From: a virus
Virus record (IMG/VR): IMGVR_UViG_3300050821_001130
Coordinates: 1-46,104 of that record
Direction: 5' to 3' (one strand)
Length of the DNA: 46,104 nucleotides
A program made the translations under genes and the position numbers. Below the pieces are notes generated by a model that saw nothing but the letters and a program-made list of their open reading frames with translations, searched no databases and had not been told where the DNA came from. Below are positions 1,050 through 46,081 of this stretch, piece by piece (position 1 is the stretch's first letter; the number at the start of each line of letters is the position of its first letter).

Positions 1050-1100
1050 AACGAACATCTACGATGTTCTGTCGTTCAGAATCAAGATTATGAACAAGGA

Positions 1101-1174
1101 AGCTGTGTGGGGGTCGAACCCATTGCTGGCCGTTTTGCAGACGGCTCCCGGACCACTCTAGGTTAGCTCACAGC
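1101..1174 (-). tRNA. tRNA-Cys (GCA)
   Basis: Anticodon arm GCCGT/ACGGC with loop CTGCAAA (GCA). Acceptor GCTGTGA/ACACAGC pairs except for a terminal A-A, followed by discriminator T, the expected U73 of cysteine tRNA. The T arm is irregular: only GGG/CCC around the TTCGA loop pairs cleanly. Confidence 0.8.
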
Positions 1175-1410: not shown

Positions 1411-1412
1411 AG

Positions 1413-1483
1413 TATTACTGAGCGGACTTGAACCGCCACCGCCAAATTGAGAGTCTGGCGTGCTGCCTTTACACCACAGTAAC
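1413..1483 (-). tRNA. tRNA-Glu (CTC)
   Basis: Acceptor GTTACTG/CAGTAAT, anticodon arm CCAGA/TTTGG with loop CTCTCAA (CTC), T arm GGCGG/CCGCT with loop TTCAAGT. It lies 2 nt from tRNA-Arg(CCT). Confidence 0.9.
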
Positions 1484-1485
1484 AT

Positions 1486-1529
1486 GAACTTGCTTGCAAG
1501 TTCTGACGTTCATAAGCATGCTTATGAAC
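1486..1529. repeat. Two adjacent perfect inverted repeats
   Basis: 1486-1503 is an 8-bp stem (GAACTTGC/GCAAGTTC) around 2 nt. 1508-1529 is a perfect 22-bp palindrome beginning GTTCATAAGC. They fill the spacer between tRNA-Glu and the tetraloop tRNA-like RNA and could be processing signals in the array transcript. Confidence 0.8.
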
Positions 1530-1532
1530 TAG

Positions 1533-1601
1533 CGTGACCGTTGGTCTCGAACCAACTCTACCGCCTTCCGGCGGGGTGCTATCCAGTTACACTAAGGCCA
1601 C
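1533..1601 (-). ncRNA. tRNA-shaped RNA with GNRA tetraloop instead of anticodon loop
   Basis: The body is tRNA-like: acceptor GTGGCC/GGTCAC, D arm GTGT/GCAC with AACTGGATA, and perfect T arm GTTGG/CCAAC with TTCGAGA. The anticodon stem CCGCC/GGCGG is perfect but closed by only four bases, GGAA, a GNRA tetraloop, so there is no seven-base loop and no normal anticodon. Related Arg-type loops would read CTCCGAA, so a deletion of about 3 nt is the simplest origin. It is 69 nt long. A forced 7-nt loop (GCCGGAA, anticodon CGG) breaks the stem. Either pseudo-tRNA or a purposeful decoy. Confidence 0.7.
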
Positions 1602-1654
1602 TAAATCAAGTTGCGATCTTAATCCCAGCTGCGGTTCCCGTCGGAACCTTAGCG

Positions 1655-1727
1655 TACCCCTGGAGGGAATCGAACCCCCATCTGACGGTTCGTAGCCGCC
1701 AGCTCTAATCCGTTAAGCTACAGAGGT
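1655..1727 (-). tRNA. tRNA-Arg (ACG)
   Basis: Acceptor ACCTCTG/CAGGGGT, anticodon arm GGCGG/CCGTC with loop CTACGAA (ACG; A34 is normally converted to inosine in bacterial tRNA-Arg), T arm GGGGG/CCCTC with TTCGATT, discriminator A. A hairpin GGTTCC/GGAACC (1633-1648) sits in the spacer on its 3' side. Confidence 0.9.
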
Positions 1728-1895: not shown

Positions 1896-1937
1896 TTTGT
1901 ACTACTATAGCACACGATCGTTAGCTTGTCAAGTCAG

Positions 1938-9237: not shown

Positions 9238-9727
9238 ACCCATACATGGAGACACCGAAGCCGCTTATAACCGTCTTGCCATCCCATACATCACCAGATC
9301 GGGTGTTGTCGATCTGCGTTATCGATGCATTCGGGGGCACGCATGTGGAGAAGTGGGCTGTCCCAAGTACCTTGGGAGGCCCGGACAGACTCTACGAATC
9401 TTTGGCGTGGAGGCTATCGTATCTGCTGGAGACACAATCTCAGTCACCGAAGGCGAACTGGACACTGTCATTCTACGGCAGCTTGGATACGCTAGTGTTG
9501 GACTTCCAGGGGCCGAATCGTGGAAGCGACACTGGCATCGACTCTTTGAAGACTTCAGCCGAATCGTAGTGTTCGGTGATGGAGACAGCGCCGGTAGGCG
9601 CTTCATCAAGAAGATGATGGACGAGTTTCCACAGAGTGTCGAGGGTATCCAGCTCCCTGATGAGGAAGACGTAAACAGCATGTATCTGCTGGAAGGCAGG
9701 GAGTACTTTGACCGCTACCTACGGTGA
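9092..9727 (+). CDS. DNA primase, TOPRIM catalytic part
   Basis: 211 aa from GTG 9092. N-terminal helical part (TREQRSLLESQTSRY, YLDGRGI), cysteine pair CGEVGCPKYLG, then TOPRIM motifs VTEGELDTVIL (Glu) and VVFGDGDSAGRR (DxD). With the zinc-finger ORF it makes a primase of the usual domain order. Whether it is made as a separate subunit or as a frameshift fusion is open; the overlap is 146 nt. Confidence 0.88.
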   Translation: MTLTREQRSLLESQTSRYQEHLYLAAEYLDGRGITEDTAVSARLGVVDEPIHGDTEAAYNRLAIPYITRSGVVDLRYRCIRGHACGEVGCPKYLGRPGQTLRIFGVEAIVSAGDTISVTEGELDTVILRQLGYASVGLPGAESWKRHWHRLFEDFSRIVVFGDGDSAGRRFIKKMMDEFPQSVEGIQLPDEEDVNSMYLLEGREYFDRYLR

Positions 9728-34762: not shown

Positions 34763-34834
34763 GGGCCTTTAGTGATAACGGAAGCACATCCGGCTTGCAC
34801 CCGGAGGGTCGGGGTTCGATTCCCCGTTGGTCCA
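34763..34834 (+). tRNA. tRNA-Ala (TGC)
   Basis: The only plus-strand tRNA. Acceptor GGGCCTT/TTGGTCC contains the G3-U70 wobble that identifies alanine tRNA (inner pairs 6 and 7 are T-T). Anticodon arm TCCGG/CCGGA with loop CTTGCAC (TGC), T arm CGGGG/CCCCG with TTCGATT. It supplies the one amino acid missing from the minus-strand array and sits in the late operon, so processing of the late mRNA could release it. Confidence 0.9.
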
Positions 34835-34945
34835 CTCCGCCACGTACAACTCAGCAGCGTGGTTGTGTATACAGTCTGAGACACTAATCAAAGTATCCGG
34901 CAAGCAACCCCGGCTTGACGCGGCTTAAAATGGGAGTAGCAAGGA

Positions 34946-46007: not shown

Positions 46008-46081
46008 CTGACATAGCAGGACTCGAACCTGCATCTTTGAGATTAACAATCTCACGCTTTACCTGATTAAGCTATACGCCA
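46008..46081 (-). tRNA. tRNA-Asn (GTT)
   Basis: Acceptor TGGCGTA/TATGTCA, anticodon arm TGAGA/TCTCA with loop TTGTTAA (GTT), T arm GCAGG/CCTGC with TTCGAGT. Adjacent to tRNA-Trp across the junction. Confidence 0.92.

Follow-up and report, generated by a model that had tools for sequence, protein, structure and literature searches.

A tRNA-like element in the tRNA array

The window, meaning the whole 46,104-nt stretch of viral DNA analysed here, carries recognisable terminase, portal and major head proteins; compared with the Mycobacterium phages of the phage database, its DNA polymerase reaches no more than about 44% identity. A 69-nt element with four arms, referred to here as X, sits on the minus strand among 12 ordinary same-strand tRNA genes (72–1875), with tRNA-Arg(ACG) as its upstream and tRNA-Glu(CTC) as its downstream neighbour (Table 1). 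A site matching the promoter-like site before the operon precedes the arrays of relatives too. A scan with the promoter pattern was too loose, matching unrelated phages. The phage tRNAs cover all 20 amino acids without X, with Trp (1–71) and Cys (1098–1171) assigned from the sequence, and X is therefore not needed to fill the set. The two ends of the record appear to join, since tRNA-Trp continues into tRNA-Asn at 46081, in the order found in relatives. As the array is split over the contig ends (1–71; 45384–46081) and whole in relatives, the contig probably represents a near-complete genome that is circularly permuted.

Table 1. Coordinates of X, its parts, its surroundings and related array elements. 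Positions are those of the window unless another record is named.
Feature	Coordinates	Strand	Basis
X, non-decoding tRNA-like RNA, whole element	1533–1601	-	RF00005 27.6 bits, cloverleaf fold, L160 homologue
X acceptor 5' strand GTGGCC (6 bp with 1534–1539)	1596–1601	-	fold; compensatory changes relative to L160
X D-arm, stem GTGT/GCAC	1576–1592	-	Rfam match, fold, alignment
X anticodon-position hairpin CCGCC-GGAA-GGCGG	1561–1574	-	Rfam match, fold; L160 counterpart CCGCC-GCGAA-GGCGG
X T-arm GTTGG-TTCGAGA-CCAAC	1540–1556	-	Rfam match, fold
X acceptor 3' strand GGTCAC	1534–1539	-	fold; four-way alignment
tRNA-Arg(ACG), upstream neighbour	1654–1727	-	ARAGORN
tRNA-Glu(CTC), downstream neighbour	1412–1483	-	ARAGORN
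Two hairpins just upstream of X, GGTTCC-GACG-GGAACC (1633–1648) and ATTAAG-ATCGCAA-CTTGAT (1605–1623)	1605–1648	-	sequence
Two palindromic hairpins downstream of X (1508–1529, 1486–1503)	1486–1529	-	sequence; self-match 1508–1529
Promoter-like site TTGACA-17-TATAGT before tRNA operon	1904–1932	-	one found, 1.1 expected by chance
Family Y	L010 8194–8266; L027 10548–10620; L030 834–908 (-); L154 3737–3809; L156 5493–5565		conserved D-arm and T-arm
Element B, seven sequences	L012 8890–9005; L020 722–836; L031 2030–2133; L153 11874–11987; L030 1578–1681 (-); L154 3078–3172; L157 5480–5575
Element C	L012 9925–10009; L014 13429–13514; L031 about 2133–2195

Read on the minus strand, X is GTGGCC-TTA-GTGT-AACTGGATA-GCAC-C-CCGCC-GGAA-GGCGG-TAGA-GTTGG-TTCGAGA-CCAAC-GGTCAC-G. 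Its minimum-energy structure is a cloverleaf (-28.2 kcal/mol, z = -2.2), and it matches the Rfam tRNA model RF00005 at 27.6 bits, with a cut-off of 29 bits, the anticodon loop being cut to 4 nt. ARAGORN run on the window did not call it. The match and the fold bear out the description in an earlier note on this DNA of a tRNA body with a CCGCC/GGCGG anticodon stem closed by GGAA. That note had also held the arms to be well preserved, which is true of the D- and T-arms, where the D-loop consensus bases A14, G18G19 and A21 and the T-loop consensus TTCGA are present, but not of the acceptor, which has 6 standard pairs where a decoding tRNA has 7 and lacks the position-66 base. Because this base is missing and the acceptor is 6 bp long, the acceptor/T stack is 11 bp rather than 12.

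X has the four-arm cloverleaf and canonical D- and T-loop bases expected of a decoding tRNA. It has no 7-nt loop with U33 and an anticodon, no alternative 7-nt loop on a 5-bp stem can be drawn in its sequence, and its acceptor falls short of 7 bp, as does that of the homologue in L160 described below. By these two features, the loop and the acceptor, X is not a decoding tRNA; with a 4-nt loop lacking U33 it is unable to decode in the normal way, as had been claimed. X was also considered as an alanine supplier, and this was rejected: there is no G3:U70 pair and a separate tRNA-Ala(TGC) lies at 34763.

A few other features of the window were seen in passing. tRNA-Cys(GCA) at 1098–1171 (minus strand) was missed by ARAGORN and at the Rfam tRNA cut-off, and is conserved in the related records L011, L012 and L030. 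The tRNA-Ala(TGC) (34763–34835, plus strand) stands isolated among virion genes on the strand opposite to the array, and isolated tRNAs beyond the array also occur in L014, L151 and L012. Similar double palindromic hairpins (GTTCA..TGAAC, then GAAC..GTTC) follow both X (1486–1529) and tRNA-Cys (gap 1050–1097), and double-hairpin spacers recur across the arrays of relatives. Three gaps in the array (1336–1250, 974–908 and 834–742, minus strand) hold tRNA-sized stretches with long closing helices, such as GACAAGGT...ACCTTGTC (8 bp), that lack a tRNA signature; L154, L156 and L157 contain a near copy of the first stretch.

Homologues and likely members in related phages

Relatives were collected by polymerase and by array patterns. 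One of them, L160, with a DNA polymerase 58% identical to that of the window, carries a homologue of X between its Glu and Ile tRNAs (GTGGTATAGTGTAGTGAGTAGCACCCCGCCGCGAAGGCGGTAGAGTCAGTGCAAATCTGGCTGCCACG). The CCGCC/GGCGG stem, a short loop (GCGAA, 5 nt, in L160) and the 6-bp acceptor are common to the two. Their global alignment scored 66; none of 500 shuffles went above 19, and the best ordinary tRNA reached 45. With local search alone the match was modest (blastn E = 3e-4 in 1.9 Mb; nhmmer E = 0.02). Both sequences keep all 20 pairs. Six of the pairs differ, three in both bases and three in one, without any being broken; these pairing-preserving changes fall in the acceptor and T stems, and random change at the same sites would keep all six pairs with p about 0.003. 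The two sequences are 73% identical and the median for the decoding tRNAs of both phages is 70%, which means that X has diverged no faster than functional tRNAs. Neither the broken stems nor the faster divergence of a decaying pseudo-tRNA was found, and no parent tRNA is recognisable nearby. The best array tRNA scores 47.5, within the range of unrelated isotypes, and X as a recent copy of an array tRNA was rejected. Since the pairs are intact and identity is at the tRNA level, it is very unlikely that X is a freshly broken gene or the product of an assembly slip. This comparison favours the view of the earlier note that X is more than a small recent loop deletion.

Two further sequences, L027 10750–10819 and L014 12923–12993, are likely members. 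Both have the array position seen in L160, a 5' GTG, a 6-bp acceptor and a D stem GTGT paired with GCAC or ACAC. Double hairpins stand ahead of the L160, L027 and L014 sequences as they do ahead of X, and such spacers are common in these arrays. The L027 loop is CTGCC (5 nt, or 7 by another pairing), while that of L014 is GTTGAAA (7 nt, with U33 and a nominal TGA anticodon; or TGAA by another pairing), and the long variable arm of a tRNA-Ser is missing from L014. A model built on X gave 29.4 bits for L014 and 34.4 bits for L027, and 35.1 bits for an ordinary tRNA-Trp. Because neither outscores ordinary tRNAs on this model, the membership of L027 and L014 rests on position and common features.

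The four sequences were aligned by hand, as MAFFT misaligned the two distant members. All 80 of 80 cells were paired and 11 of the 20 pairs were doubly changed, a number reached by 2 of 20,000 shuffles in a control that ignores relatedness. Pairing as such is to be expected in any group of tRNAs; the informative features of the alignment are the replaced stem, the variable loop length and the discordant anticodons. The anticodon-position stems of X, L160, L027 and L014 are CCGCC, CCGCC, GGACC and GGGGG, with loops of 4, 5, 5 (or 7) and 7 nt, and the nominal anticodons of the members disagree (Ser in L014, Ala in L027, none in X and L160). The loop is surely short in only two members, and the hairpin is common to only two sequences. 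As the loops differ among members, the GNRA tetraloop is a detail of X alone. Its conservation, which the earlier note had proposed, does not hold, and the prediction of a covarying CCGCC stem around a constant GNRA loop is reversed: the two sure members keep the stem unchanged and differ in the loop.

The nearest relatives are entirely without X. The gap between Arg(ACG) and Glu(CTC) is 0 nt in L003 and L008 and 7 nt in L010, and in L012 and L030 it is filled by another conserved element (B) with a T-arm and acceptor at its end. X was considered as a possible worn form of element B; the alignment of the two was only marginal, scoring 42 for L012, where shuffles reach 47, and 30 for L030, below the 95% shuffle level. 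A normal tRNA with a 7-nt loop at the exact locus of X, which the earlier note had named as one of two results that would refute it, was found in none of the relatives. The phage database yielded only short chance or T-arm matches to X and no match to the L160 and L014 forms, and the exact X hairpin was found in none of the viral contigs. A search of genome contigs by polymerase gave none, and the one genome contig matching the hairpin pattern (L191) showed no tRNA genes around the match, which is apparently a chance one in GC-rich DNA.

Other array elements and known RNAs

Elements of several other kinds were found in related arrays (Table 1). Those of family Y have a tRNA-like D-arm (TAGTTAGAAGTGGTAGAAC or close) and an acceptor broken by a bulge or internal loop. 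Their anticodon-position hairpins (CCGGG-CCA-CCCGG, CCCGG-GGAAAA-CCGGG, CCTGT-TGCA-ACAGG and CGGA-AGGCC-TCCG) have unrelated but paired stems and loops of 3, 6, 4 and 5 nt. Element B is about 95–115 nt long, with a near-invariant 5' part (TGACAAGTTCGGAACTAGG), a variable middle and a canonical T-arm; its terminal helix and T stem covary among the seven sequences, and neither the phage database nor Rfam contained a match to it. X is thus one of several non-decoding elements in these arrays. Element C has the conserved pattern CAAAACTTCA..CTGTTGAAAAG..TCAAAAATAAGGAACAG.. and may hold a pseudoknot, its pairing being ACTCTGTT/AACAGAGT versus ACCCTGTT/AACAGGGT. In the arrays searched, Rfam at its cut-offs recognised nothing except tRNAs.

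An element A of about 115 nt (L011 12714–12848, L014 13587–13719) is 79% identical between two divergent phages and lies inside their tRNA arrays. In L012, between tRNA-Cys and tRNA-Lys (9360–9675), a reading stretch is inserted behind a repeated 5' portion of a tRNA-Lys, and possibly represents a candidate HNH-type endonuclease.

We know of no function for the species 1 and species 2 RNAs of phage T4. These RNAs (rnaC, 139 nt, and rnaD, 119 nt; NC_000866) lie, like X, inside a phage tRNA cluster. X is likewise on the strand of its array, and by analogy its setting may best be read as akin to theirs. The T4 RNAs are stable non-tRNA RNAs with long inner structures, whereas X is a 69-nt four-arm cloverleaf. 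rnaC ends in a canonical T-arm (CCGGGTTCGAATCCCGG), and its plan is closer to that of element B than to that of X; the X model run on T4 matched T4 tRNAs only, and neither rnaC nor rnaD.

For tRNAs of actinophage arrays with anticodon loops unlike those of the host, a role in evading anticodon nucleases has been suggested (van den Berg et al. 2023, PMC10264068). Those are decoding tRNAs with 7-nt loops and point changes, whereas X gave up decoding. GOLLD and ROOL are structured phage RNAs of unknown function that are often near tRNA islands (PMC12286853). In contrast to the tRNA-sized cloverleaf of X, they are hundreds of nucleotides long, form cages and have no tRNA body, and Rfam gave no match to either in the window or the relatives. 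Beyond phages, the viral tRNA-like RNAs of murine gammaherpesvirus 68 (cited in PMC6409571) and mascRNA are tRNA-shaped and matured like tRNAs, and are not used for decoding. They are eukaryotic and of separate origin, and have other known or proposed roles. From the T4, GOLLD and ROOL RNAs X differs as a full tRNA-sized cloverleaf, and by model it matches none of them. Short-loop tRNA-like genes in phage arrays were not found reported in the open-access literature.

Readings of the element

On the sequence comparisons, we consider it fairly probable that the phage maintains X in its tRNA operon as a gene for a tRNA-like RNA that does not decode. The cloverleaf with its 4-nt loop, the short-loop homologue, the pairing-preserving changes, the presence in divergent phages, the likely members in L027 and L014, the second short-loop family, Y, and the coverage of all 20 amino acids by other tRNA genes all favour this. 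Weighing against it are the small number of members with a surely short loop, the degenerate T-loop of L160, the failure of the X model to separate L014 and L027 from ordinary tRNAs, and the lack of X in the nearest relatives. The main rival, which we regard as possible but distinctly the lesser, is that X is a horizontally moved relic in slow decay: a surplus L014-type tRNA whose loop disappeared in a common ancestor, which recombination then spread and which has not yet been lost. A 7-nt loop with U33 in the likely L014 member would suit such a history, as would the degenerate T-loop of the L160 homologue (TGCAAAT), in which part of the elbow consensus is lost, and the absence of X from most relatives' arrays. 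Array tRNAs clearly move between phages, the Gln and Asp tRNAs being 93–97% identical between the window and L160 where the remaining tRNAs average 70%, and X itself stands at different array positions in the two. However, a decaying relic sits poorly with six stem pairs changed and none broken, with a derived 6-bp acceptor common to X and L160, and with an identity not below that of working tRNAs.

It is unlikely that X serves as a processing or spacing element, that is, a cutting site or folding spacer for maturation of the tRNA precursor, with its own product as waste. The operon is tightly packed, hairpins flank X on both sides, and tRNA-like shapes are known targets of RNase P and of the enzymes that process 3' ends, all of which would fit. 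Against this, the adjacent tRNAs have their own processing signals, L003, L008 and L010 manage with no element between Arg and Glu, and a pure spacer does not need an invariant CCGCC/GGCGG hairpin. Two further explanations are highly improbable. That X is an odd tRNA which still decodes through a compact loop would be in keeping with its well-kept body and the nominal TGA anticodon of L014, but founders on the lack of U33 and of any 7-nt loop with a 5-bp stem, the discordant anticodons of the likely members and the other tRNA genes serving all 20 amino acids. Loss of three bases from a normal anticodon loop through faulty sequencing or assembly is conceivable in a single metagenomic contig, but L160, an independent contig, shows this hairpin stem too, again with a short loop, and lost loop bases would leave the 6-bp acceptor, common to both, unexplained.

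A maintained X would have descended from a tRNA. It would probably share the transcript of the array, started at the promoter-like site 1932–1904, and would probably be cut out of it by the tRNA-maturing enzymes. Because the acceptor, D and T arms are kept, it could resemble a tRNA for proteins that grip the outer L, and these may still take it for one. Lacking U33, with 4–5 nt in the loop and 11 bp in the acceptor/T stack, it would fall outside normal decoding. It might then occupy tRNA-directed host factors, for example tRNA-cleaving or tRNA-surveillance proteins, while being itself neither usable nor cuttable. As the tRNA body is kept and the loop discarded, a decoy or competitor is the best-fitting job, and by analogy we put this role forward tentatively; the earlier note had listed a decoy too, beside a sponge and a processing scaffold. 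More speculative still is the wider suggestion that phage arrays carry families of maintained non-decoding mimics, among them X, Y and B, that act on tRNA-directed host proteins, decoys that tRNA-cleaving defences cannot cut being one example.

The reason for phage tRNA arrays is debated, and tRNA cleavage is recurrent in anti-phage defence. A conserved array gene with a tRNA body and no decoding is not explained by codon supply, and X thus separates the tRNA as decoder from the tRNA as decoy or mimic. It also means that standard tRNA finders miss or misname one class of array genes: ARAGORN passed over both X and its L160 homologue, and named the likely members in L027 and L014 tRNA-Ala and tRNA-Ser, respectively.
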